A stretch of DNA of 24,871 bases from a virus. The notes under the pieces were generated by a model. It was not told the DNA's origin. It did no database searches and saw only the letters and a program-made list of their open reading frames with translations. Numbering within the stretch: position 1 is the stretch's first letter; each line of letters begins with the position of its first letter. The translations under genes were made by a program, and so were the position numbers. The stretch covers positions 1 through 24,871 of the IMG/VR virus record IMGVR_UViG_3300003702_000123. One strand, 5' to 3'. Below are positions 3 to 20,263 of this stretch, piece by piece.

Positions 3-170
3 GCAATGGGAATGGGTGTAAAAGATTATAGTGGTGATCCAATGTTTGCTGGTATGTTGACTATGGAATTGAAAAGAAAAGGATATGATGGTGTTGTTAG
101 TGATGATGTAGCAATTGGTATTGTCATATTTGACGAGAAAAATATTAAAGAGGTCACGAAAGATGCGTAA
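3..170 (+). CDS. C-terminal end of a protein, possibly ADP-ribosyltransferase-like (partial)
   Basis: Only the last 55 residues are in the window; the 5' part lies upstream. The fragment ends in a pattern G-Y-D-G-V-V, then I-V-I-F-D-E-K-N-I-K-E-V. From memory this resembles the last strand of ADP-ribosyltransferase folds in phage polyvalent proteins, which read roughly 'G-Y-D-G-I-V ... Y-V-V-F-D-P-x-x-I-K-x-V'. The catalytic Arg, Ser and Glu positions are not visible, so activity cannot be judged. The stop overlaps the start of the next gene by 8 bases, which implies co-translation. T4 packages an ADP-ribosyltransferase (Alt) in its head. Given the putative head-protease sites downstream, an Alt-like role is possible but is inference. 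The family call is tentative. Confidence 0.5.
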   Translation, partial: AMGMGVKDYSGDPMFAGMLTMELKRKGYDGVVSDDVAIGIVIFDEKNIKEVTKDA

Positions 171-1572
171 ATTTAGAGATTTAGTTGAAGCCAAAGATAC
201 CATTGTATTTGCATTTGGTCGTTTTAATCCTCCAACAACTGGTCATGAAAAACTTATTAAAAAAGTTGCATCTGTTGCTGGAACAAATCCATTTCGTATT
301 TATCCTTCTTTTACACAAAACCCCAAGAGGGACCCACTTCTTCATACATTGAAAGTTGCGTATATGAGGAAGATGTTCAAGAAGTATGCAAGAAATATTA
401 TTGCCGATAAGAATGCAAAAACTGCACATCAGATTGCAGTTAAGTTATATGATGAGGGATTTAAGAATATTAAGATGGTAGTTGGGTCTGATCGTTTAAA
501 AGAATTTGATACTCTTCTTAAAACTTATAACGGAGTTACAGGAAAGCGTCATGGTTATTATAAATTTGATACCATTGATGTTATAAGTGCTGGAGAACGT
601 GATCCAGACTCAGAAGGTGTAGAAGGTATGTCTGCATCCAAAATGAGAACTGCTGCAGCTGCTGGTGATATGGATTCATTTTTACTAGGTGTACCTTCTG
701 GATTTAAAGATGGAAAGAAACTTTATAGAGATGTTCGTTTTTTTATGGGTATTCGTGAAGAGCGTGACATGGGAGATATGTCAGATTTTGAAACTGTTCG
801 GGATGCATATCTCACAGGGAAGATTTGGAATGTAGGTGATATTGTAGAAGCTAATGGTGTTGTTGGTGAGGTTGTTCGTAAGGGTACAAATTATCTTTCA
901 TTTATGACTGAAGATAACAAGATTCATAAAGCATGGTTGTATGAAATTGAACTTGATGAGGAAGGACTTCCACCTCATCTTGCAAAACTGTTTGATAAGA
1001 AAGGAAACTTCAAAGACCCTAAGAAACAAGCTGTTTATAAAAAAATGGTAAAGAAGGACTACCAAGGCACACCAGACCAGATTGCGCGCCGTTCGTCAAG
1101 GAATAAAGCTCGTAGGATTATGGGAGATAAGACAAAGATTGGAATGGATGTTGGCCATAAAGATAACAATCCATTAAACAATGACCCTAAGAATTTACGC
1201 AATGAAAACCCATCTAAGAATCGTAGAGAACCACGATTGCGTGAAAAACCAGAAATTGATGAAACATGGTACATTAATCTTTGGGATAAGATAAGTCAGA
1301 TGAGCCATCCCAAAGGTTGGGAGAAACTTGTAAAAACTTATGTTGATGGTATGAAAGAACCAGAACATAGAAAACGTCCATCTTCATGGGCAGCAGAAGT
1401 TACTAGACAACATACTAAAAATGTACCTGCTCGATCACTTATTAAATATATTAATACATTAGTTGCTAAAGGAAAATTACCTAAAGAATTAAAGGCAGAA
1501 AAAGAAGAATGGTCTTTTAAAGAATTTGTAGACCAAATTCAAGAAGGTAAACAGACAAAAAAACCTAAATAA
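163..1572 (+). CDS. Nucleotidyltransferase with KOW-like, HNH-like and C-terminal modules
   Basis: 469 residues. Residues 12-195 form a cytidylyltransferase-fold nucleotidyltransferase of the NMNAT/PPAT type. F-G-R-F-N-P-P-T-T-G-H (18-28) is the (T/H)xGH nucleotide-binding motif, and M-S-A-S-K-M-R (156-162) is the equivalent of the second signature, ISSTxxR. Such enzymes transfer AMP or CMP to a phosphorylated substrate; the substrate here is unknown. Residues 218-265 look like a small beta-barrel (KOW-like). A linker containing I-E-L-D-E follows (262-266). Residues 325-355 (V-G-H-K-D-N-N-P-L-N-N-D, then N-L) resemble a degenerate HNH nuclease core. The rest is a basic helical module. ATG 163 is chosen over TTG 115 because of AAAGAGGT at 147-154 and the 8-base overlap with the upstream gene. 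The same L-x-E linker occurs in the next two genes, which suggests a shared fate such as head packaging (inference). Confidence 0.75.
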   Translation: MRKFRDLVEAKDTIVFAFGRFNPPTTGHEKLIKKVASVAGTNPFRIYPSFTQNPKRDPLLHTLKVAYMRKMFKKYARNIIADKNAKTAHQIAVKLYDEGFKNIKMVVGSDRLKEFDTLLKTYNGVTGKRHGYYKFDTIDVISAGERDPDSEGVEGMSASKMRTAAAAGDMDSFLLGVPSGFKDGKKLYRDVRFFMGIREERDMGDMSDFETVRDAYLTGKIWNVGDIVEANGVVGEVVRKGTNYLSFMTEDNKIHKAWLYEIELDEEGLPPHLAKLFDKKGNFKDPKKQAVYKKMVKKDYQGTPDQIARRSSRNKARRIMGDKTKIGMDVGHKDNNPLNNDPKNLRNENPSKNRREPRLREKPEIDETWYINLWDKISQMSHPKGWEKLVKTYVDGMKEPEHRKRPSSWAAEVTRQHTKNVPARSLIKYINTLVAKGKLPKELKAEKEEWSFKEFVDQIQEGKQTKKPK

Positions 1573-1589
1573 TAAAAAGGGCTAAAAAT

Positions 1590-3215
1590 ATGACTAATTA
1601 TTTAAAAACAATGGCAGAATCACTTATGGAAGTGCGTAAAATTGAAGAAGCTACAATGAAAGCTTCTCAAATTGCTCAACTCAAAAAAGCATATGAGCCC
1701 ATGCGTGGTAAAAGGATTAGTACGGGCAATGCACAAAAATTATCAAAAATGATGGATGGGTTTGATGATAATAAGCAGTTGATGATTCAATTAGTAAAAG
1801 CAGATATTCCCTTTGTTAGTACACTTGCTATAACTCGACTTATTTCTAAACATAATATGAAAGGTGCTGAAATAAACAAATTAAAAAAGGAAGAGATGGA
1901 GTTCTGGGAAAGTTTAGAGGAGCATAAAGGTGATAAACCTCATGACCATCCACACGATGAAGATGAACTTGATGAGGTACAGAAGGTAGCGAGACAACTA
2001 AAAGACCCTAAAAAAGAAGTGATGCTTGTTAAGAAGAATAAAGTTATTGTTGTTGATAGAAAAGATGAAAAGAAATATCTATCAAAAGGTTGGCAGTTAG
2101 CCGAAGAAGATGAACTTGATGAAGATGACAAGCTTAGTATTGGAGATCGAGTTGCAGAACAACTTGCCAGGATTAAAGGTAGTACTTCTTTTGATGAAGC
2201 AGAAGTTGAACTTGATGAACGTCCTGCTCAATATCCACTATATCACAAAACCTTTTCCGCTGCAATGGATACAGCCTATCGCCACGCAAAAAAGGCATAT
2301 GGTATCACTGTTAAATCAAGTGAGATTGATGATAAGGTTGCAACAGGCCCAAGAAAACCATCAAAGGGTAAGACAAACAAATATCGTTTGGAAGGTGATA
2401 AGGGTGCTATTCAAGTTCAAGTATACAATACAGGACATAAGGATGGGACTTATGAACTGAATATGTACAAAGAAGAAGTTGAACTTGATGAGAGAGAACT
2501 TACAGATACAGAGAAGAAGAGGCGTGAAGAAATTGCTCAAGATATGAATGATGCTGATTTTAAAGATCAGTATGGTGATCGTTGGAAAGAAGTTAAGATG
2601 GCCGTTGCGACTAAGCAGGCTAAGAATGAAGAAGTTGAACTTGATGAAGGTAAAATGAAAGAACTTCATATGTATATTCAACAGGGTAAGTCTGCAAAAG
2701 AAATTGCAAAAATTATGAAGTTGGATGTAAAGACAATACAATCACTTATGGCAGGGTATAAAGAATCATATAAGTTTGGTACAGATGAGTATCGTGAGTA
2801 TCTTGAAAAGTTAACGCCAGGAGAAGGAACCCAAGAAGCTTCTGCTCGCGCAGATGCTGCGCGTCATATGCGTAGAGATAAAAAAGTGGACCCTGCTGAT
2901 GTTGATATAGATGCTTCGCCTGAAGATATAAAGGGTGCATCCAAGAATATTATTATGCAAATGCGTAAAGTTGTGTCTATGCGAGGAAATTTTCCTGTAG
3001 AATTTCTTGATAAGAAGAAAGTAAAACTTCCTGCTAAAATTGCTCAAAAAGTTCAAAACAAATACGATTCCTTTAAAAAACCAGCAGATAAAGCAAAGTT
3101 TCAAGTGAAGGTTGCGAAGTCATATAAGAGTATGTTAACCGCTTTAAAAGAAGAAGTTAAAGAAACAATTCTAGATAGGATTGATAGAAAACTCAAGGAG
3201 AGAAAAAATGGGTAA
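1590..3215 (+). CDS. Modular protein with repeated E-L-D-E linkers (putative head-packaged polyprotein)
   Basis: 541 residues, rich in Lys and Glu, with no signal peptide or membrane segment. Acidic linkers ending in L-D-E occur at residues 127-129, 176-178, 208-210, 299-301 and 351-353. They separate compact modules of about 49, 32, 91 and 52 residues. Module 1 (20-105) is helical. Module 4 (302-345) is a charged helical segment. The piece after 353 contains an HTH-like segment (K-S-A-K-E-I-A-K-I-M-K-L-D-V-K-T-I, 368-384). The C-terminal 450-525 is basic. I recall several of these modules being shuffled among marine T4-like phage proteins, with no known function. L-x-E is the established cleavage rule of the T4 prohead protease gp21, so the linkers may be processing sites in a packaged polyprotein; that is inference. 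AAAAAGG at 1574-1580 supports ATG 1590. The 3' end overlaps the next gene by 8 bases. Confidence 0.8.
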   Translation: MTNYLKTMAESLMEVRKIEEATMKASQIAQLKKAYEPMRGKRISTGNAQKLSKMMDGFDDNKQLMIQLVKADIPFVSTLAITRLISKHNMKGAEINKLKKEEMEFWESLEEHKGDKPHDHPHDEDELDEVQKVARQLKDPKKEVMLVKKNKVIVVDRKDEKKYLSKGWQLAEEDELDEDDKLSIGDRVAEQLARIKGSTSFDEAEVELDERPAQYPLYHKTFSAAMDTAYRHAKKAYGITVKSSEIDDKVATGPRKPSKGKTNKYRLEGDKGAIQVQVYNTGHKDGTYELNMYKEEVELDERELTDTEKKRREEIAQDMNDADFKDQYGDRWKEVKMAVATKQAKNEEVELDEGKMKELHMYIQQGKSAKEIAKIMKLDVKTIQSLMAGYKESYKFGTDEYREYLEKLTPGEGTQEASARADAARHMRRDKKVDPADVDIDASPEDIKGASKNIIMQMRKVVSMRGNFPVEFLDKKKVKLPAKIAQKVQNKYDSFKKPADKAKFQVKVAKSYKSMLTALKEEVKETILDRIDRKLKERKNG

Positions 3216-3368
3216 GAAATATTTGGAGACTAAGAAAGACAGTCTTGAGTCATCCATTCTGGGAGTGTGGCAGACTGCAATCGAAGAGGGTGAAGCAATT
3301 AGAGATGCTGCTCAGATGACTAAAGAAGTGCCTAAAGAAGTGACTAAAGAAGAAGTTGAACTTGATGA
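1965..3368 (+). repeat. Dispersed near-identical linker repeats encoding (E-E-V)-E-L-D-E
   Basis: The core GAACTTGATGA occurs at 1965-1975, 2112-2122, 2208-2218, 2481-2491, 2637-2647 and 3358-3368, with another copy at 949-959 in the preceding gene. A 20-base version, GAAGAAGTTGAACTTGATGA, is identical at 2472-2491, 2628-2647 and 3349-3368. All copies are in the coding frame and give E-L-D-E. Identity at the DNA level, despite synonymous freedom, points to recent duplication, gene conversion or cassette shuffling through the linker rather than protein-level selection alone. Confidence 0.85.
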
Positions 3369-4245
3369 ACAAGTAGACGCTTTTTTTGAGCATATAATTG
3401 CAATGTCGGATGATAATTTTGATAAACTTTTAGAAGATTATTCTGATGAGGAACTTATTACGCTTGAGGCATTTTTTGCTAAAACCATTGGTAAAATTGC
3501 TAAAGCTGCCGGTAAAGGTGTTGTTAAAGTAGCAAAACGGTTCGGCACCGACAAGGGGCGTACTGCTGGAATTCAGAAAAAAATAGATAAACTTAAAGGT
3601 AAGCAAACTGATCGAGCTGCACTCACAAAAGCAAAAGGTGACCTCGCCGGGTTGAAAAAGAAGAAAACACCCGACGCTGGCGCAGCTGTTGCTCCAAAAA
3701 CGAAGGGTAAAGAAACACCCGCCCCGGCCGCAGCTGCTCCTCCAAAAAAGAAGGTTGTTGCTCCAAAAAAGAAGGCTAAGAAGAAAACAGGTGGCAAAAC
3801 GCCGGCCGGACTGAGTTCGCCGAAACCAAGAAACGTCGGGAGCGAAAATTATACAGAAGCTTCTGGTGATAAAGAGGCATATAAGAAATTCTTTAATTCT
3901 GCTTTAAAGAAATTCAAAGTTTCTTCTCCTGCTGAACTAAAGGGAGATGATAAAAAGAAATTCTTTGATTACATTGATAAGAATTGGGAAGGCGATAATG
4001 AAAAAGCAGAAGCTGCTATGTCTCAAGTTAGAGAATTTAAAGTTCAATCCATGAAGGCTGCTCTTGCACAAGTTTGGGGTATCGCTGAAGGTGAATTACC
4101 TCCTGCTTTAAAAAAGGCAATTGATGCTAAGAAAAAAGATAAAGAGGAAAAGGATGAAGATAAAATTTTGAAAAATGGTGGTAAAACCTTAACAGGAAAA
4201 AAGGCTGCAGAAATTGATATTAATCCCGAAATAAAAGATAGATGA
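3208..4245 (+). CDS. Modular Lys/Ala/Pro-rich protein with one E-E-V-E-L-D-E linker
   Basis: 345 residues. N-terminal helical module 1-45, then E-E-V-E-L-D-E (48-54), the same linker as in the gene before. Residues 55-90 are acidic and helical, and 92-135 are basic. Residues 136-205 form a low-complexity stretch rich in Lys, Ala and Pro that resembles a linker-histone tail. Residues 218-262 form a compact helical module (K-F-F-N-S-A-L-K-K-F-K-V-S-S-P-A-E-L) that I recall from other marine phage proteins. The tail is Lys/Asp-rich. AAGGAG at 3195-3200 sets ATG 3208, and the start overlaps the previous gene. The basic tail would suit DNA binding inside the capsid (inference). The middle (about 3540-3840) is clearly richer in G+C than its flanks, so it may be a separately acquired insert. 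The function is not known. Confidence 0.75.
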   Translation: MGKKYLETKKDSLESSILGVWQTAIEEGEAIRDAAQMTKEVPKEVTKEEVELDEQVDAFFEHIIAMSDDNFDKLLEDYSDEELITLEAFFAKTIGKIAKAAGKGVVKVAKRFGTDKGRTAGIQKKIDKLKGKQTDRAALTKAKGDLAGLKKKKTPDAGAAVAPKTKGKETPAPAAAAPPKKKVVAPKKKAKKKTGGKTPAGLSSPKPRNVGSENYTEASGDKEAYKKFFNSALKKFKVSSPAELKGDDKKKFFDYIDKNWEGDNEKAEAAMSQVREFKVQSMKAALAQVWGIAEGELPPALKKAIDAKKKDKEEKDEDKILKNGGKTLTGKKAAEIDINPEIKDR

Positions 4246-7168: not shown

Positions 7169-7594
7169 ATGAAAAGTTTTAAATTATTTCTTAAAGAACA
7201 TCCTAGTACTTCAGATCAAAATCTTGCTGTAGACAGAGATACAAATATGGCAGTTTTAAGCAATCCAGCAGTTGTAAAAAAACTTAATGCTTGGGTTGGA
7301 ACAATTGCTGGAAATTATGTATTGCCTGAAGATGCAGTCCACAATTTAAGAAGTTCATTATCAAGAATTGGACTTTCGTTTGATGAAGTTCCTATGATAG
7401 AAGGTGGAAGTGGTTCTTTTGACTTGCCTCTTACTTCGTTTGGTGGCCGATTTGGTAAAGGTTTAACTACCCCACATGATGAATTTGAAGTAGATGATGG
7501 TATTTCTCATCAAGTGGAAGGCGGACTTACTCTAGTTATTGGTTATGAAATGCAAGAGGACAATTCATGTAAGTTATCCGCCCATATTGAATAA
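7169..7594 (+). CDS. Conserved hypothetical protein (141 aa)
   Basis: Begins M-K-S-F-K-L-F-L-K-E, an N-terminal pattern I recall on many proteins of marine T4-like phages. Soluble, with a helical first half and a Gly-rich second half (G-G-S-G-S-F at 81-86, G-G-R-F-G-K-G at 93-99). No catalytic motif is seen. It is joined on both sides with almost no spacing, so it belongs to one unit with 7012 and 7595. Confidence 0.65.
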   Translation: MKSFKLFLKEHPSTSDQNLAVDRDTNMAVLSNPAVVKKLNAWVGTIAGNYVLPEDAVHNLRSSLSRIGLSFDEVPMIEGGSGSFDLPLTSFGGRFGKGLTTPHDEFEVDDGISHQVEGGLTLVIGYEMQEDNSCKLSAHIE

Positions 7595-14427: not shown

Positions 14428-15459
14428 ATGTCATACATTGATTCAAAATATCTTAATATTCTTAGTCCTCAACTTTTGAAGTTTCAAAAGAAAGGGGATT
14501 TTTTATGGAATTTTCGTTGTCCTTATTGTGGAGATTCACAGAAATCTCGTTCTAAGGCAAGAGGATATGTTTATCGTAAGAAAAACGATTTATTTTATAA
14601 ATGTCATAATTGTGGTATGGGTACTACTCTTGGTAATTTAATAAAGTATATTGACTCTAAAATTCATAAAGACTATATAATGGAGAGATATAGAAGTGGG
14701 GTTAAAACCAATAACCCAGAGCCGGAGTTTAAATTTAAATTTGATGTTCCAATTTTTCGTAAAAAGGGTATTTTTGAAAATCTCAAATCTATATCAGATT
14801 TATCTAAAGACCATCCCGCCAGAAGAATTATTGGCGAGAGACTTATACCATCAAAGTCATTCTCCGATTTATATTTATGTGAGTCATTTTATAAATTCAC
14901 GAATTCATTAATACCAAATAAATTTCCTTCCTTGGATGGAGATCACCCAAGATTATTGATACCATTTAGGAATGAAGAAGGAGAAATATTTGCATATCAA
15001 GGAAGAGCTTTTGGAAAGGAGCAACCCAAATATTTAACTATCAAACTTAATCAGGATAAAGATAAAATTTATGGTCTTGATAAAATTGATATTAAAAAAC
15101 ATATCTATATTGTTGAAGGTCCACTTGACAGTTTATTTTTAGATAATTGTATTGCAGTAGGTGGAGCAGATTTTAGAAAACCTTTAATGATAAAAGAAAA
15201 ATGTATTCAGAATGAAGAATTTACAATAATTTTTGATAATGAACCTAGAAATAGAGAAATTGTTAAACACATTAAGAAAACTATAGATCAAGGTTGTAGA
15301 ATTGTATTATGGCCGGAATCAGTAAAAGAAAAAGATATTAATGATATGATTTTATCAGGAATGTCTAAAGAGAATATAAAAACAATAATTAAAGAAAATA
15401 CCTTTACTGGTATTGAAGCTAAATTAAAATTTATAGAATGGAAAAAAATAAATGCCTAA
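14428..15459 (+). CDS. DNA primase, T4 gp61-like
   Basis: 343 residues. An N-terminal zinc ribbon has C31-x2-C34 and C59-x2-C62 (C-P-Y-C-G-D, C-H-N-C-G). A TOPRIM domain follows with I-V-E-G-P-L-D-S, whose glutamate is E230, and F-D-N-E with D270. The order, size and motif wording match the primase of T4-like phages, which makes RNA primers for lagging-strand synthesis together with a gp41-type helicase (not in this window). It overlaps the reductase gene by eight bases. No ribosome site precedes ATG; see the promoter entry. Confidence 0.85.
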   Translation: MSYIDSKYLNILSPQLLKFQKKGDFLWNFRCPYCGDSQKSRSKARGYVYRKKNDLFYKCHNCGMGTTLGNLIKYIDSKIHKDYIMERYRSGVKTNNPEPEFKFKFDVPIFRKKGIFENLKSISDLSKDHPARRIIGERLIPSKSFSDLYLCESFYKFTNSLIPNKFPSLDGDHPRLLIPFRNEEGEIFAYQGRAFGKEQPKYLTIKLNQDKDKIYGLDKIDIKKHIYIVEGPLDSLFLDNCIAVGGADFRKPLMIKEKCIQNEEFTIIFDNEPRNREIVKHIKKTIDQGCRIVLWPESVKEKDINDMILSGMSKENIKTIIKENTFTGIEAKLKFIEWKKINA

Positions 15460-16954
15460 CAACTATTTACCCACATCATATCAAGAATTTATTTATCTGT
15501 CTAGATATTCACGATGGTTGCCAGAAAAAGAACGTAGAGAAACGTGGGACGAAACAATTGCAAGGTATTTTAATTTTTTTACTGAACATCTAAATGAAAC
15601 ACACAAATATAAATTGAGTAAATCTTTAAGGACTGAATTAGAAGAAGCAATATTATCACAAAAAGTTATGCCTTCTATGCGTTGTTTGATGACTGCTGGT
15701 GAAGCTCTTAAACGTGAAAATATTGCAGGGTATAATTGTTCTTATGTAGCAGTTGACAAACCAAGTGCTTTTGATGAAATTCTTTATGTTTTAATGAATG
15801 GTACTGGTGTAGGATTTAGTGTAGAAAGACAATTTGTTTCTCAACTTCCAACAATAGCAGATGAATTTCATCAAACAGATACAACAATTGTTGTTGCTGA
15901 CAGTAAACTTGGTTGGGCAAAAGCAATGAAAGAACTTGTGGGTATGTTGTATGTTGGACAGATTCCTCGTTGGGATTTATCTAAGGTTCGTCCTGCTGGG
16001 GCAATACTTAAAACTTTTGGTGGTAGAGCATCAGGTCCAGAACCTTTAGAGAGTCTATTTAATTTTTCAGTAACTATATTTCAAAATGCAGCTGGTCGTA
16101 AATTATCTTCTATAGAAACACATGACATTATATGTAAGATCGCAGAGATTGTAGTTGTCGGCGGTGTTCGTAGGTCTGCGTTGATTAGTTTATCAAATTT
16201 ATCTGATGATCGTATGAGGGCTGCTAAAAGTGGTCAATGGTGGAATGAACAAGGTCAACGTGCCCTTGCAAATAATTCTGCATGTTATCAAGAAAAACCA
16301 GAGATGGGAATTTTTATGGATGAGTGGAAATCTCTTTATGATTCTAAGTCTGGTGAAAGAGGAATATTTAATAGAATCTCCGCACAAAAGCAAGCTGAAA
16401 AAAATGGTAGAAGAGAATCAGAACATCTATTTGGGACCAATCCCTGTTCAGAAATTATATTACGAAATAGAGAATTCTGCAATTTATCAGAGGTTGTTAT
16501 AAGACCAACTGATACAAAGGAGTCTCTTTTGGAGAAAGTACGACTTGCAACGATTCTGGGCACATTTCAATCTACATTGGTAAACTTTAAATATGTATCT
16601 TCTTTGTGGAAAAAGAATTGTGAAGAAGAGCGTTTACTTGGTGTATCACTTACTGGCATTATGGATTGTAAATTGACAAACGGTAAAAGTGCTGGTCTTG
16701 AAAAGTTATTAGATGAGTTGCGTGAACAAGCTATTAAGACAAATGAAGAGTTTGCAAAAAAGATAGGTATTAATAAAAGTGTCGCTATAACGTGCGTGAA
16801 ACCGTCAGGAACGGTCAGTCAGTTAGTTAATGCTGCATCTGGTATTCATGCTCGTCATAATCCTTACTATGTAAGAACAATTCGTGGTGATAAGAAAGAC
16901 CCTCTTACAAGAATGATGATCCAAGTCATACATCTGTTTTTTCTTTTCCCATGA
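15452..16954 (+). CDS. Adenosylcobalamin-dependent (class II) ribonucleotide reductase, N-terminal part, frameshifted
   Basis: Residues 1-489 belong to the monomeric B12-dependent reductase family (RTPR type), which makes deoxyribonucleotides without oxygen-dependent cofactors. Seen: N-C-S-Y (C96, equivalent of C119 of the Lactobacillus enzyme), G-T-G-V-G-F-S-V-E (117-125), N-P-C-S-E (330-334; thiyl C332 and E334), C343 exactly 11 residues after C332 as in the family, and P-S-G-T-V-S-Q (451-457). After D-P-L-T-R-M-M the frame runs into a false 11-residue tail. The rest of the enzyme follows in the -1 frame at 16951-17331. Compared with relatives I remember, about a dozen residues also seem absent at the break, so it may be a short deletion rather than one missing base. 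It overlaps the primase end by eight bases. Confidence 0.85.
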   Translation: MPNNYLPTSYQEFIYLSRYSRWLPEKERRETWDETIARYFNFFTEHLNETHKYKLSKSLRTELEEAILSQKVMPSMRCLMTAGEALKRENIAGYNCSYVAVDKPSAFDEILYVLMNGTGVGFSVERQFVSQLPTIADEFHQTDTTIVVADSKLGWAKAMKELVGMLYVGQIPRWDLSKVRPAGAILKTFGGRASGPEPLESLFNFSVTIFQNAAGRKLSSIETHDIICKIAEIVVVGGVRRSALISLSNLSDDRMRAAKSGQWWNEQGQRALANNSACYQEKPEMGIFMDEWKSLYDSKSGERGIFNRISAQKQAEKNGRRESEHLFGTNPCSEIILRNREFCNLSEVVIRPTDTKESLLEKVRLATILGTFQSTLVNFKYVSSLWKKNCEEERLLGVSLTGIMDCKLTNGKSAGLEKLLDELREQAIKTNEEFAKKIGINKSVAITCVKPSGTVSQLVNAASGIHARHNPYYVRTIRGDKKDPLTRMMIQVIHLFFLFP

Positions 16955-17331
16955 AAGTAGATCAGGGAGCTGTTTTTCGTGCAGATATGACTGCACTTGA
17001 ACAATTGGAACTTTGGTTAATTTATCAGAAACATTGGTGTGAACATAAACCTTCTGTTACTATTTCTGTAAAAGAAGATGAATGGTTGGAAGTTGGTGCT
17101 TGGGTTTATAAACATTTTGATTATATGTGTGGTGTAAGTTTTCTACCATTTTCAGAACATACATATAAACAAGCGCCATATCAGGATTGCAAGAAGGAAG
17201 AGTATGAAATTCTCCTTAATAAAATGCCAAAGAATATAGAGTGGGATAAATTAATAAAATATGAGAAAACTGATATGACTATCGGTGTTCAAGAATTAGC
17301 TTGTGCTTCTGGATTCTGTGAGATACAATGA
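16917..17331 (+). CDS. Class II ribonucleotide reductase, C-terminal part
   Basis: In-frame coding sense begins at AAT 16917 (N-D-D-P-S-H-T-S-V-F-S-F-P-M), while the first ATG is at 16951. This portion holds F-S-F-P-M-K-V, the E-H-K-P-S-V-T-I-S-V strand, and the C-terminal redox pair in C-A-S-G-F-C with the five-residue spacing of the family. The pair re-reduces the active site. With the N-terminal part all catalytic cysteines are present, so only the junction is damaged. If translated separately from ATG 16951 this piece would lack a full fold. The stop overlaps the next start (ATGA). Confidence 0.75.
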
Positions 17332-17492
17332 AATTAATCGTATGTGGATCATGCGATGCAGAATTTTCTGTACGACATTTTATGGATGAAATATATTTTG
17401 AGATATTGTGTTGTCCTTTTTGTGGAGCAGGACTATCTAACAATTTAGAAGATTTAGAAGATGCGATAGAAGATTGGGATGAAAACGAGTAG
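17328..17492 (+). CDS. Small zinc-ribbon protein (54 aa)
   Basis: C6-x2-C9 (V-C-G-S-C-D) and C29-x2-C32 (C-P-F-C-G-A) form a classic two-knuckle zinc ribbon, followed by an acidic helix (E-D-L-E-D-A-I-E-D-W-D). It begins within the reductase stop (ATGA) and overlaps the nuclease gene by 14 bases, so it is co-translated with nucleotide and DNA metabolism genes. Function unknown. Confidence 0.65.
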   Translation: MKLIVCGSCDAEFSVRHFMDEIYFEILCCPFCGAGLSNNLEDLEDAIEDWDENE

Positions 17493-17817
17493 TGCAAAGG
17501 CTAAGGGTAGAAGATTACAACAATGGTTTCGTGATATCCTTATAGAAAAATTAGAAGTACATCCAGAAGATATAGAAAGTCGTTCTATGGGAGCGGGTGG
17601 TGAAGATTTGATCATGGCTCGTGCAGCTAGAAAAAAGTTTCCTTATTCTATAGAGTGCAAAAATCAAGAGAGTGTTAACGTCTGGAAAGCATACGAACAA
17701 GCAGAAGAAAATTCTGGTGATTATGAACCAATTGTGGTTCTGAAACGCAATAACGCAAAACCCCTTGTTTTGGTTGATGCAGAATATTTTGTGAAATTAC
17801 ATGATGATAAACTTTGA
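17479..17817 (+). CDS. PD-(D/E)XK-type nuclease, resolvase-like
   Basis: 112 residues. A basic helical start (K-A-K-G-R-R-L-Q-Q-W-F-R-D) is followed by R-S-M-G-A-G-G-E-D-L (D43), then I-E-C-K-N-Q (E59 and K61). The pattern G-E-D ... E-x-K is the metal-binding core of the PD-(D/E)XK superfamily, and the size fits small Holliday-junction or Vsr-like nucleases of marine phages. Role in recombination, replication-fork or host-DNA processing is inferred. It overlaps both neighbours (14 and 17 bases). Confidence 0.75.
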   Translation: MKTSSAKAKGRRLQQWFRDILIEKLEVHPEDIESRSMGAGGEDLIMARAARKKFPYSIECKNQESVNVWKAYEQAEENSGDYEPIVVLKRNNAKPLVLVDAEYFVKLHDDKL

Positions 17818-18469
17818 ATTTATAGATAGACAGAAACTTTATGATTCTTTAAAAATTAATGAAGACATTAAAGTTAAAAAAATAAATTATGGAGATTTTT
17901 CATACCTATGTGTTGAAAATTTTCTCAAGACTCCAGAAAAAGCTATAGAACTTTTATCAAAATATCCCGCTATAGATGGTGGAGTATATACGCCAGGAGC
18001 AAGACAAAATCTAACACCTATGGATTTAGTTCCTATTTTACAGGCATATAAAACAATAATGGCAACTGTTGGTGTAGAAATTGATCCAACACATTTTATA
18101 ACATCATCTAACATTGTATGGAAAGACGTTAAGGTATGGAAAAATTCTTGGATGCCACATACAGATTTTGATTTAGTTTGTAATTTGTGGTTATGTAATT
18201 ATGAAGGTGGAACTGCAATTTACAAATATAGAGGATTTCTTAATCAAAAAGATATAACACCCAAACCGCAAGGACACGATGAAAACAATCTTGTTCCTTG
18301 GCAAAATTTTGAAGGTGATGATGATTGGGAATTGTATTATATTATTCCTTCAGAATTTAATACAGTTGCAATATATGACGGAACAAATTTTCATGGCACA
18401 TATGCCAATTTTAATGAAGAATATCGTTATTCATTAATATCATTTTATCATTCAAACAGGAAATTTTAA
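17801..18469 (+). CDS. 2-oxoglutarate/Fe(II) oxygenase-like protein (DUF6445-like)
   Basis: 222 residues. P-H-T-D-F-D (H120, D122) and N-F-H-G-T-Y (H198) supply an H-x-D...H iron triad, with an Arg in E-Y-R-Y-S-L-I-S-F (R209) placed for 2-oxoglutarate. G-G-T-A-I-Y and the beta-rich body between them match the jelly-roll fold. I recall DUF6445 proteins with this layout in marine bacteria and phages; the substrate is unknown. ATG 17801 lies inside the nuclease gene; ATG 17804 is an equally good alternative. It is the last gene of the primase transcription unit. Confidence 0.65.
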   Translation: MMINFEFIDRQKLYDSLKINEDIKVKKINYGDFSYLCVENFLKTPEKAIELLSKYPAIDGGVYTPGARQNLTPMDLVPILQAYKTIMATVGVEIDPTHFITSSNIVWKDVKVWKNSWMPHTDFDLVCNLWLCNYEGGTAIYKYRGFLNQKDITPKPQGHDENNLVPWQNFEGDDDWELYYIIPSEFNTVAIYDGTNFHGTYANFNEEYRYSLISFYHSNRKF

Positions 18470-18515
18470 TGATAAATTGGATTAATGGTATTAAACTCCA
18501 CCGTAACTGATATAT

Positions 18516-18523
18516 TATAAATA
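18516..18523 (+). promoter_or_regulatory. T4-type late promoter TATAAATA
   Basis: A perfect late box in the 102-base gap after the oxygenase gene, 48 bases before ATG 18572. It drives the tandem membrane proteins. Confidence 0.75.
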
Positions 18524-18531
18524 GTTTTACT

Positions 18532-18555
18532 ATTCGAGATTATAAAATCCCGAAT
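18532..18555 (+). promoter_or_regulatory. 5'-leader hairpin before the ribosome site
   Basis: ATTCG (18532-18536) pairs with CGAAT (18551-18555) and GAT (18538-18540) with ATC (18547-18549), around one mismatch and a TATAAA loop. A competing stem, GAGATT (18536-18541) with AATCTC (18553-18558), is also possible. The hairpin would lie at the very 5' end of the late transcript and stop four to seven bases before the TTGGAG ribosome site (18560-18565), so it may stabilise the message or tune translation. Confidence 0.45.
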
Positions 18556-18571
18556 CTCTTTGGAGTTGCTG

Positions 18572-18850
18572 ATGGAAGCACTTAAATTAATTGCTGACCT
18601 AGGCTTTTCCATCGCAGCTGCTCTTGCTGGCGGATTCTTTATTGTTCTACTTTTAAAATATATTCTTGATTCAATTGTCAGTAAGACCGTGTATCTTAAC
18701 AATATGATTTCTTCTTTGGATAATAGAGTTAAAACTATTAATAATGAAATAGTGAGACTTGATGCTCTTGTATGTCATGCTTTAGAAATTAGACCTGATA
18801 CTCGTAGAATATCTGCTGCAGATGGAAAAGAAGATGCTAGAAAAGATTAA
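18572..18850 (+). CDS. Membrane protein with coiled coil, tandem copy 1 (92 aa)
   Basis: A hydrophobic segment (about residues 11-32, with A-A-A-L-A-G-G-F-F-I-V-L-L-L) is followed by a charged coiled coil containing L-D-N-R-V-K-T-I-N-N-E-I-V-R-L-D and an Ala/Asp/Lys-rich tail. ATG 18572 is chosen because TTGGAG (18560-18565) fits it and no site precedes TTG 18560. The next gene encodes a protein of the same plan, so the two are probably paralogs. Late expression is indicated by the promoter at 18516. A holin/antiholin-like pair or inner-membrane virion entry factors are options; none is shown. Confidence 0.65.
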   Translation: MEALKLIADLGFSIAAALAGGFFIVLLLKYILDSIVSKTVYLNNMISSLDNRVKTINNEIVRLDALVCHALEIRPDTRRISAADGKEDARKD

Positions 18851-18852
18851 TA

Positions 18853-19101
18853 ATGAGTAGCATTGTAGATATAGTTAATCAATATGGTGTACCCACAGTT
18901 GCTGCTATGGGTATGGCATATTTTATCTATTATATTTGGAAATTTGTTACAGTAAAAATACTTCCAAGTTTAAGTAAAGCCATTGGTACATTGATAAAAT
19001 TAATAGATAGGGTGAGAATGTTAGATAATGATATGATCAGACTAGATCAAAAAATTAATACTATAATAGAAATTCATGAAAAACAAAAACGAAAAAAATA
19101 A
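18853..19101 (+). CDS. Membrane protein with coiled coil, tandem copy 2 (82 aa)
   Basis: The same architecture as the preceding gene: a hydrophobic segment (about 12-34, A-A-M-G-M-A-Y-F-I-Y-Y-I-W), then a helix with L-I-D-R-V-R-M-L-D-N-D-M-I-R-L-D that aligns with the coiled coil of copy 1, and a basic end (K-Q-K-R-K-K). It starts two bases after the previous stop, with no separate ribosome site, so it is translationally coupled. Confidence 0.65.
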   Translation: MSSIVDIVNQYGVPTVAAMGMAYFIYYIWKFVTVKILPSLSKAIGTLIKLIDRVRMLDNDMIRLDQKINTIIEIHEKQKRKK

Positions 19102-19109
19102 TATAACAC

Positions 19110-19138
19110 TTGACAAACCCTTCTTTTTGTTGTATAGT
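19110..19138 (+). promoter_or_regulatory. Sigma70-type early promoter
   Basis: TTGACA (19110-19115), 17-bp spacer, TATAGT (19133-19138), followed by ATATAATATGA. An almost identical arrangement occurs exactly 300 bases downstream. The expected start of transcription is about 19145, next to an ATG at 19146 that opens an eight-codon reading frame. Confidence 0.8.
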
Positions 19139-19145
19139 ATATAAT

Positions 19146-19172
19146 ATGACAAACAACATGGATAAATATTAA
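19146..19172 (+). other. Possible eight-codon leader reading frame
   Basis: ATG 19146 encodes M-T-N-N-M-D-K-Y and stops one base before ATG 19174. It would begin at the 5' end of the transcript from the 19110 promoter, in the position where the downstream bS21 gene has its start. It could load ribosomes onto the next gene by coupling. Support is positional only. Confidence 0.3.
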
Positions 19173-19173
19173 T

Positions 19174-19413
19174 ATGGATATGATTTTACATACAACACTG
19201 GCGTTGGGATGCATCTTCGGTTCTTACTATCTTGGGAGAATTTTAGCTGCAAAAGAATGTATTGATCCTATTGCAACAAAACTTTTAGAAAAACTTGAAA
19301 ATGATGGATTTATTCACACCGTCACTGATAAGGATGGTGATAAAGAACTTATTCCTGTTTCTGAATTGATCGCTGAAGCGTTGCGAGAAACAAAATCTCA
19401 AAATATTACTTGA
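19174..19413 (+). CDS. Conserved membrane-anchored protein (79 aa)
   Basis: An N-terminal membrane segment (about 4-24, H-T-T-L-A-L-G-C-I-F-G-S-Y-Y-L-G-R) precedes a small acidic cytoplasmic domain (K-L-L-E-K-L-E-N-D-G-F, then V-S-E-L-I-A-E-A-L). I recall a family of this form (M-D-M-x-L-H-T start) in marine T4-like phages, function unknown. No ribosome site is seen; translation may depend on the short leader frame just upstream. The end overlaps the -35 box of the next promoter. Confidence 0.65.
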   Translation: MDMILHTTLALGCIFGSYYLGRILAAKECIDPIATKLLEKLENDGFIHTVTDKDGDKELIPVSELIAEALRETKSQNIT

Positions 19414-19438
19414 CAAAGTTTCTTCAGTCTGATATAAT
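19410..19438 (+). promoter_or_regulatory. Sigma70-type early promoter for bS21
   Basis: TTGACA (19410-19415), 17-bp spacer, TATAAT (19433-19438): consensus in both boxes and spacing. The expected start of transcription is at or within a base or two of ATG 19446, so the bS21 message should be leaderless. Confidence 0.85.
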
Positions 19439-19445
19439 ATATAAT

Positions 19446-19682
19446 ATGATGAAAAATGAAAATAACTTTTTTACTGGGTTGAAAGTCGAAGTCCGTAATA
19501 ATAATGTGGACCAAGCAATACGAATTCTCAAGAAAAAATTGCAACAAGATGGATTGTTCAATGAATTAAGAGAACGAGAACATTATGTATCAAAAGGCGA
19601 AAAACGCAGACACGCTAAAGCTGCAGCAATTCGTAGATATAAAAAAGAACAACAAAAACGTATGGAAGAATTGGATTTCTAA
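19446..19682 (+). CDS. rpsU: Ribosomal protein bS21, phage-encoded
   Basis: 78 residues. L-K-V-E-V-R-N-N-N-V-D-Q-A-I-R-I-L-K-K-K (residues 12-31) is the hallmark of bS21, followed by G-L-F-N-E-L-R-E-R-E, S-K-G-E-K-R-R and the basic end A-A-A-I-R-R-Y-K-K. bS21 sits on the 30S platform near the mRNA exit and the anti-Shine-Dalgarno helix and affects start-site choice. Phage copies are known from marine viruses, where they probably replace host bS21 and bias ribosomes to phage messages. ATG 19446 or 19449 may start; no ribosome site is visible upstream, which fits a leaderless message. The stop overlaps the next start by one base. Confidence 0.88.
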   Translation: MMKNENNFFTGLKVEVRNNNVDQAIRILKKKLQQDGLFNELREREHYVSKGEKRRHAKAAAIRRYKKEQQKRMEELDF

Positions 19683-20263
19683 TGGTAAAACGTAAAATTA
19701 TATCTGAAACTGATAATAGTAATTGGCAAGCACCTAAGAAACGCAAACCACGCAAACCTATGAGTGAGGAACAGCGTGCTGCAGCTGCAACACGTTTGGA
19801 AAAAGTGAGGGAAAAACGTAAAGCTAAAAATCCTGATTATGGTTTGAGTGGCGTTCATGAAAGTATTCGTGATTTGCCGGATGAACATCCAGTTGCTCCT
19901 AAAAAAGTTAAACAATGGATTAATACACAAAAAGAACTTGCGGCCTCTGAACGTAGTGCTGTAAGACAAAAGATAAAAGGTGCTCTTGCAAAACAATTAT
20001 ATCATGAAGGATATATAAAACATATGCAAACGTATCTTAGAACTGGTGATTGGATTGATATTTTTTATGGAGAACATCAACAAAATAAAATTCGTTGGAG
20101 TTGTTATTCTTTAGCATATGATGAGGATGGTGATCCAAAAAGAAATGTAGGAGTTTTTTATCCAGATATGGGCTGCGTATATACACAAGAAATGTTTAAT
20201 GAAAGTAAAGGTATTTTTAATGACCGACCAAGAAAACAAAGAACCAAGCGCAGAAATAATTGA
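19682..20263 (+). CDS. Conserved basic phage protein (193 aa)
   Basis: Residues 18-50 are strongly basic with K-P-R-K-P-M-S-E-E-Q-R-A-A-A-A, a motif I recall from a conserved family of marine T4-like phages. Residues 90-130 are helical. Residues 125-175 look like a compact domain (W-I-D-I-F-Y-G, W-S-C-Y-S-L-A-Y, V-G-V-F-Y-P-D-M-G-C). The end is Arg/Lys-rich. Nucleic-acid or ribosome binding would suit the charge and the bS21 neighbour, but is inference. It is transcribed with bS21 and overlaps the next gene by 44 bases. Confidence 0.65.
   Translation: MVKRKIISETDNSNWQAPKKRKPRKPMSEEQRAAAATRLEKVREKRKAKNPDYGLSGVHESIRDLPDEHPVAPKKVKQWINTQKELAASERSAVRQKIKGALAKQLYHEGYIKHMQTYLRTGDWIDIFYGEHQQNKIRWSCYSLAYDEDGDPKRNVGVFYPDMGCVYTQEMFNESKGIFNDRPRKQRTKRRNN

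Follow-up and report, generated by a model that had tools for sequence, protein, structure and literature searches.

The stretch of DNA analysed here, referred to as the window, is the viral record IMGVR_UViG_3300003702_000123 of IMG/VR (24,871 bases), and the subject of this study is a group of three adjacent open reading frames (ORFs) on its plus strand, P1 (163-1572, ATG start), P2 (1590-3215) and P3 (3208-4245, ATG start), whose products consist of modules joined by a repeated linker ending in E-L-D-E. The closest named relatives of the window were the T4-like Methylophilales phage Melnitz and Pelagibacter phage HTVC008M, both Kyanoviridae. P1-P3 and the next gene, P4, correspond to Melnitz_18, _20, _21 and _22 in the same order (Melnitz 14914-19789), and a counterpart cluster lies at 103767-111718 of HTVC008M. 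In Melnitz, the cluster is flanked by primase/helicase genes and by a DNA primase and ribonucleotide reductase pair. A tblastn search of named phages with P3 as the query gave no match. Related loci were gathered from IMG/VR using P2, P1, P3 and module A of P2 as queries, together with the linker DNA, and the modules were profiled with hidden Markov models.

P1 begins with a capsid-targeting-like sequence, MRKFRDLVE/A (163-189; here and below a slash follows the Glu of a putative cleavage site), of a pattern common to NMNAT homologues of many phages and to the T4 internal proteins (IPs) I-III. Its first domain is cytidyltransferase/NMNAT-like (phrog_395, E 7e-68) and is separated by the linker YEIELDE/E (940-960) from an HNH-like/basic module, in which the match to HNH_3 was weak and under the Pfam cut-off. 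A site IDE/T (1255-1263) precedes the last, 'WYIN' module, and [LI]xE was found before the module start in 17 of 24 non-redundant WYIN homologues. The orthologues of P1 are Melnitz_18 and HTVC008M 107221-109011. P2 is composed of at least six modules (EPMRG, VQKV, B, LTDTE, HTH and A), each of them reused in other proteins, and starts with the targeting-like MTNYLKTMAE/SLME/V (1590-1631), kept as MTRYxKTMxE/A in Melnitz_20 and HTVC008M. Its five linkers are DEDELDE/V (1956-1976), EEDELDE/D (2103-2123), AEVELDE/R (2199-2219), EEVELDE/R (2472-2492) and EEVELDE/G (2628-2648). The third and the fourth of these enclose module B (YxLYHK...ELNMYK, 2220-2471), the most often reused module, with 55 non-redundant upstream and about 50 downstream contexts; the fifth is followed by the HTH-like module (GKMKEL..., 2649-2810), and module A (RRDKKVDPADVD..., 2853-3149) lies downstream of the latter. 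P3 contains a short N-terminal part, the linker EEVELDE/Q (3349-3369), a basic stretch rich in Lys, Ala and Pro, module C, which recurs across many phage contigs, and a C-terminal tail.

ELDE thus occurs once in P1, five times in P2 and once in P3, while shuffles of the residues of the three proteins contained 0.05 on average and never more than 2. At the DNA level, the exact 20-mer GAAGAAGTTGAACTTGATGA was found at 2472-2491, 2628-2647 and 3349-3368, that is, in the last two linkers of P2 and the linker of P3. When up to three mismatches were allowed, there were seven matches, one per linker (the P1 linker has three mismatches), and none in 100 dinucleotide shuffles of the window. These results confirm the starting observation of the original prediction, made from the window alone, that seven E-L-D-E linkers occur in three adjacent proteins and that three of them share 20 identical bases. 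The module types that it named (nucleotidyltransferase, HNH-like, HTH-like, basic) were broadly borne out, with weak Pfam matches for HNH_3 and HTH. L-D-E is not the sole junction, as other [LIM]-x-E sites lie at or near module boundaries: LVE/A, IDE/T and IQE/G in P1, MAE/S, LME/V, IEE/A, LAE/E and LKE/E in P2, and IEE/G and IAE/G in P3. The exact 20-mer was seen in at least 189 unique contexts in the viral scan. That it always lies in the linker frame was considered as evidence for a coding element and dropped, because one other frame has stops and 23 matches in bacterial genomes, located in apparently unrelated proteins, share the EEVELD frame.

The T4 prohead protease gp21 cuts after L/I-X-E, as stated in the relevant passages of PMC9026906. 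To compare this rule with the module boundaries, 308 non-redundant internal junctions were examined for motifs from position -10 to +2 relative to the module start and in three control windows; the sequences are related, which the filter of 55% identity over the 16 residues upstream reduces without abolishing. [LI]xE was present at the module start in 191 of the 308 junctions (62%), versus 30, 22 and 5 in the control windows (2-10%), and [LIMV]xE in 244, versus 47, 37 and 16. Control motifs such as [LI]xD and [LI]xK were not enriched. Among the junctions lacking any [LIMV]DE, 124 of 188 still had [LIMV]xE (35, 21 and 12 in the controls), for example LQE/A, LKE/A, LNE/A, IEE/A, LLE/A, MQE/A, LVE/G and ISE/E. 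Position P2 of the motif was free (D, E, N, K, T, Q, S or A), and position P1' at junctions without [LIMV]DE was mostly A or G, next K or R. Judged from sequence, the module junctions obey the T4 gp21 cleavage rule, and homologues keep L/I-x-E there, as the original prediction implied. A gp21-type protease (PF03420), with the motifs GELxHP and GVSSRG conserved by eye, was found in each of the 11 related records that reach 136 kb or more, including Melnitz, HTVC008M and jumbo phage SCTP-2.

According to the same source, residues 4, 7, 8 and 10 matter for targeting of T4 proteins into the head (PMC9026906). IPII and IPIII start with MKTYQEFIAE/A and IPI with MKTFKEF...ITE/A, and the same arrangement, an aromatic residue near position 4, Leu or Ile near 8 and Glu near 10, was found in P1 and, with Met at position P3 of the motif, in P2. 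The pattern M..[FYL].{2,5}[LIMV].E matched 48 of the 194 non-redundant N-termini of module proteins, where shuffling predicts 2.6; for the remaining ORFs of the same loci, the figures were 134 of 1381 observed and 18.3 expected. It was absent from T7 (0/40) and podovirus HTVC019P (0/49).

The original prediction proposed a search for the same modules in other orders among marine phages. In related marine phage contigs, 13 modules were found in changed order, with 75 ordered neighbour pairs and 16 module pairs seen both ways round; module A, for example, is N-terminal in Melnitz_20 and C-terminal in P2 of the window. More than 20 different modules come after module B and an identical EEVELDE. 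In a sample of 408 linker instances, there were 192 downstream clusters; 25 different downstream clusters followed one and the same upstream cluster, and 24 different upstream clusters preceded one and the same downstream cluster. The LTDTE module was also found in the 440-kb genome of Salicola jumbo phage SCTP-2 (4717-6354), where it is followed by IAE/G, which suggests that the module and the junction rule may extend beyond Kyanoviridae. A further observation concerns gp160 of phage S-CREM2 (12343-13236 of its locus), a protein in the virion proteome list: it contains modules (..GALVKCRKKGASNWGNK..) that adjoin EEVELDE linkers elsewhere, and ISE/G precedes.

The linker is conserved as DNA as well. 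In 145 unique [VI]ELDE linkers collected through searches at the protein level (the degenerate linker scan, which probably includes chance EEVELDE matches, was excluded), the Leu codon was CTT in 140 (96.6%), versus 29.9% of the other Leu codons of the same ORFs, and the Val codon was GTT in 91%, versus a background of 50%. Across 128 non-redundant junctions, the information content was high from -6 to +14 around VELDE, including wobble positions, and at background level on either side. DNA alignments between contigs started at the linker in 322 cases and ended there in 339, versus 61 and 59 expected, although these counts are not independent. From this DNA conservation and the alignment breakpoints, the linker behaves as a recombination joint, in agreement with the original suggestion that its identity would let modules be swapped. 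On the other hand, the EEVELDE of S-SCSM1 ORF92 uses the Leu codon TTA, therefore the peptide is kept even without the linker DNA.

The AlphaFold model of P2 (mean predicted local distance difference test score, pLDDT, of 76; predicted template modelling score of 0.31) consists of separate compact domains with low-pLDDT gaps between them. It was built on an alignment of proteins of similar module order; a first alignment had misplaced module fragments. All five LDE sites of P2, that of DEDELDE/V among them, are in or at most 5 residues from segments of pLDDT <50, which has a probability of about 0.002 at random positions. In a fold search, the readable PDB matches lay mostly over the HTH region, every Z being <8; the structures closest to residues 345-409 were DNA-binding domains of homeodomain and LuxR type (Z up to 7.4), and the Pfam matches of this module were weak. 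Viral matches were mostly whole-chain alignments to other modular phage proteins with a very high root-mean-square deviation, and modules A, B, EPMRG and LTDTE were assigned to no fold in the search with P2.

Published proteomics provides evidence for the presence of homologues in virions. NMNAT/cytidylyltransferase homologues of P1 are reported as detected by mass spectrometry in S-SCSM1, S-SZBM1 and S-CREM2 virions in the passages concerned of PMC9602691, PMC9146016 and PMC10665884, and an NMNAT-like protein of the S-CBWM1 virion is cited within the same literature. The NMNAT of S-SCSM1, at a position comparable to the Melnitz cluster, starts with MKSFLQFLKE/A, and that of S-CREM2 with MKNFSSFLTE/A. 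In the S-SCSM1 record, ORFs 89-93, 95 and 97 around the NMNAT are marked as virion proteins. ORF92, directly downstream of the NMNAT, contains NKEEVELDE/RTRYAKE and shares no detectable similarity with P2 beyond the linker and the gene position. In the S-SCSM1 stretches checked, [LI]xE in residues 4-18 weakly separates detected (9/21) from undetected proteins (11/72).

From these results, a mechanism may be proposed, and we consider it probable that P1-P3 are capsid-packaged, gp21-cleaved modular head-cargo polyproteins of a marine T4-like phage, the modules of which are swapped at a 21-bp joint. The N-terminal targeting sequence of P1 and P2 would carry the chain into the prohead core, where a gp21-type protease would cut after [L/I]-x-E, taking off the targeting peptide and cleaving the linkers (mostly ELDE or EEVELDE). 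The small folded modules set free, an NMNAT-like enzyme, HNH-like and HTH-like modules, modules B and A, and others, would remain in the head and enter the host along with the DNA, while the linker would double as a 21-bp DNA joint for module exchange between phages. The evidence supports the original interpretation of packaged, protease-processed polyproteins; from it we infer that the internal linkers are cut, that the pieces stay in the head and are injected, and that they have roles in the host, and for injection with the DNA the pointer is a single one, the detection of homologues in virions. We also lean, less firmly, towards a combinatorial cargo system common to the whole family of marine T4-like phages, in which GAAGAAGTTGAACTTGATGAa, the 21-bp sequence encoding EEVELDE, is both a head-protease site and a recombination joint; many small modules would be built into capsid-delivered polyproteins and traded between phages, as in exon shuffling with a built-in release site.

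Several observations weigh against the proposed mechanism. The start of P3, MGKKYLETKKDSLESS, is not matched by the targeting pattern, its first [LI]xE being at residue 27, and the HTVC008M counterpart of P3 lacks [LI]xE. About one fifth of the junctions have no [LIMV]xE, position P1' in the present linkers is frequently K, R or D, and the starts of the query modules were placed at linkers, which somewhat favours the junction test. No gp21 was seen in the 24.9-kb window, which is a genome fragment. Over the stretches of S-SCSM1 that were checked, detected (1/21) and undetected proteins (4/72) were not told apart by the strict targeting pattern. For none of P1-P3 and their relatives is a cleavage product on record; the published proteomic searches used intact ORFs, and the authors of the cyanophage proteomes allow in the passages concerned that the NMNAT may be carried or represent carry-over (PMC9602691, PMC10665884).

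The proteins might be packaged in the head and yet be injected whole, like classical polyvalent proteins, with only the targeting peptide removed and the ELDE linkers serving as flexible spacers and recombination joints. Polyvalent proteins are indeed described as multidomain injected proteins in the part of PMC5512222 concerned, and the conservation of the linker as DNA, with breakpoints located there, is not needed by protease specificity alone. We nevertheless regard uncut spacers as unlikely: many junctions of very different DNA and protein keep [LIMV]xE right before the module with a free middle residue, S-SCSM1 keeps EEVELDE with another Leu codon, and since gp21 needs only a very short motif by the account in PMC9026906, exposed L-x-E sites in the prohead are expected to be cut. 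That the acidic-hydrophobic linkers are instead motifs by which the chain docks repeatedly on the prohead core (scaffold gp22), that is, internal copies of the targeting function, would fit the core binding of the T4 targeting sequence, which has L/I-x-E at its own end (PMC9026906, passages on targeting), as well as the resemblance of EEVELDE to an extended recognition motif with residues fixed beyond P3-P1. Still, in those passages, targeting of T4 IPIII depends mainly on residues 4 and 7, which in the IPIII sequence are the aromatic Y4 and F7, whereas the linkers contain no such residues and are variable outside P3 and P1, which makes docking quite improbable.

It is harder still to regard P1-P3 as unpackaged cytoplasmic metabolic or host-takeover proteins, with virion detection due to contamination. 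The cytidylyltransferase gene has been classified among the auxiliary metabolic genes, and the proteome authors mention carry-over even after CsCl purification; against this, three or more independent virion proteomes repeatedly include the protein along with products of neighbouring genes from its locus, and the N-termini resemble those of T4 IPs and end in L/I-x-E. Finally, chance low-complexity acidic segments might be expected in acidic, low-GC coding sequence, and the 20-mer does occur in the 23 bacterial genome stretches mentioned above, but the result of the window shuffles, the number of unique viral contexts, the codon bias and the association with module boundaries leave virtually no room for this explanation, which we take as already refuted.

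The polyprotein reading also bears on the neighbouring genes, and the gene set at 163-4245 delimited in the original prediction stands but reaches further on both sides. Upstream, positions 3-170 of the plus strand encode the C-terminal 55 residues of an ADP-ribosyltransferase-like protein truncated by the contig end (Pfam ART-PolyVal, E 2-4e-4, under the curated cut-off). Its C-terminus is near-identical in the orthologues of two loci (L209, L227), and the complete orthologues (L209, L227, L243, L255) mostly have T4-IP-like targeting starts, such as MKTFKQHLKE/A. This is a close parallel to T4, because T4 packages the ADP-ribosyltransferase Alt and gp21 cuts it, as noted in PMC9026906. Downstream, the plus-strand ORF at 7169-7594 encodes a small conserved protein with the start MKSFKLFLKE/H, also conserved in homologues from five loci (L271, L289, L303, L308 and L315), and is a candidate single-domain internal head protein. 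P4 (4256-4771, plus strand), the conserved next gene after P3, is 5'-nucleotidase-like (phrog_2643, E 1e-24); some of its homologues have a targeting sequence (MKTFKDYIIE/F), while P4 of the window has no clear one. Neighbours in Melnitz and HTVC008M include zeta-toxin/AAA-like kinases with starts ending in L-x-E (MKTFAELQE/G, MIPFILKE/G). Targeting-like starts also occur in DUF6267 proteins. Those adjoining the NMNAT (L210:2919-4157, L005:13272-14528) have [LI]xE close to the N-terminus; they also share a conserved motif, KWDG, which by eye resembles nucleotidyltransferase/ligase motif I, so a packaged ligase-like enzyme is possible. Apart from this cluster, the B12-type ribonucleotide reductase of the window (15452-17331) is encoded by two overlapping ORFs (15452-16954 and 16951-17331), and by one 1824-nt gene in Melnitz; the window version is either an assembly frameshift or a genuine split.

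The proposed system shares with T4 IPI-III and Alt the aromatic N-terminal targeting sequence ending in L/I-x-E, head packaging, gp21 in related genomes and, in the case of Alt, an ADP-ribosyltransferase-like gene within the same cluster. Each T4 internal protein, however, is a small protein by itself and has a single N-terminal propeptide, whereas the chains here hold several modules and a repeated internal linker, and the modules are reshuffled between phages. Multiple gp21 cuts at L/I-x-E, as proposed here, occur in the T4 core proteins gp22 and gp67, but these are scaffold or core components, the fragments of which mostly leave the head, and they lack folded enzyme or DNA-binding modules split by a conserved linker. 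Polyvalent proteins, as presented in the passages concerned of PMC5512222, likewise combine several unrelated domains in one polypeptide (here an NMNAT and an HNH-like one in P1, and modules of six types in P2), include ART domains, and are predicted to be injected with DNA and proteolytically processed. Their processing is ascribed there to built-in zincin-like metallopeptidases, frequent though not universal in polyvalent proteins, for which P1-P3 gave no Pfam match, and cyanobacteria are noted as poor in such proteins; here, in marine T4-like phages with T4-type targeting sequences, the cuts at the repeated linker are ascribed to the gp21 of the phage itself. The giant phages phiKZ and SPN3US, with their ejection proteins, likewise have injected cargo and a prohead protease that cuts after Glu in a short motif, but in SPN3US 13 of the 14 mapped sites remove N-terminal propeptides, the last one matures the protease, and no modular polyprotein is described (PMC10052503). 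The cyanophage NMNAT/cytidylyltransferase is a homologue of the first module of P1, found at a similar position and in virions, and the passages concerned of PMC9602691, PMC10665884 and PMC9146016 report no targeting sequence, linker, processing or module shuffling for it. The system proposed here would therefore combine features of T4 internal proteins and polyvalent proteins, neither description of which, in the passages concerned of PMC9026906 and PMC5512222, has a repeated protease-site linker or exchange at it. The original prediction knew of no published account, and our literature searches, which covered open-access papers and so leave novelty unproven, likewise found no description of the linker string, of a prohead-protease polyprotein or of marine-phage targeting sequences as such a system.

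If the proposed mechanism is true, many puzzling 'hypothetical' multidomain proteins of marine T4-like phages would be head cargo with boundaries predictable to the residue, and the cyanophage virion NMNAT, so far called carried or contaminating, would be tied to a T4-type targeting sequence. The modules would also make up a testable list of candidate early-infection effectors, and phages would have a route to new injected functions, namely the addition of a cassette flanked by a joint that doubles as a cleavage site.

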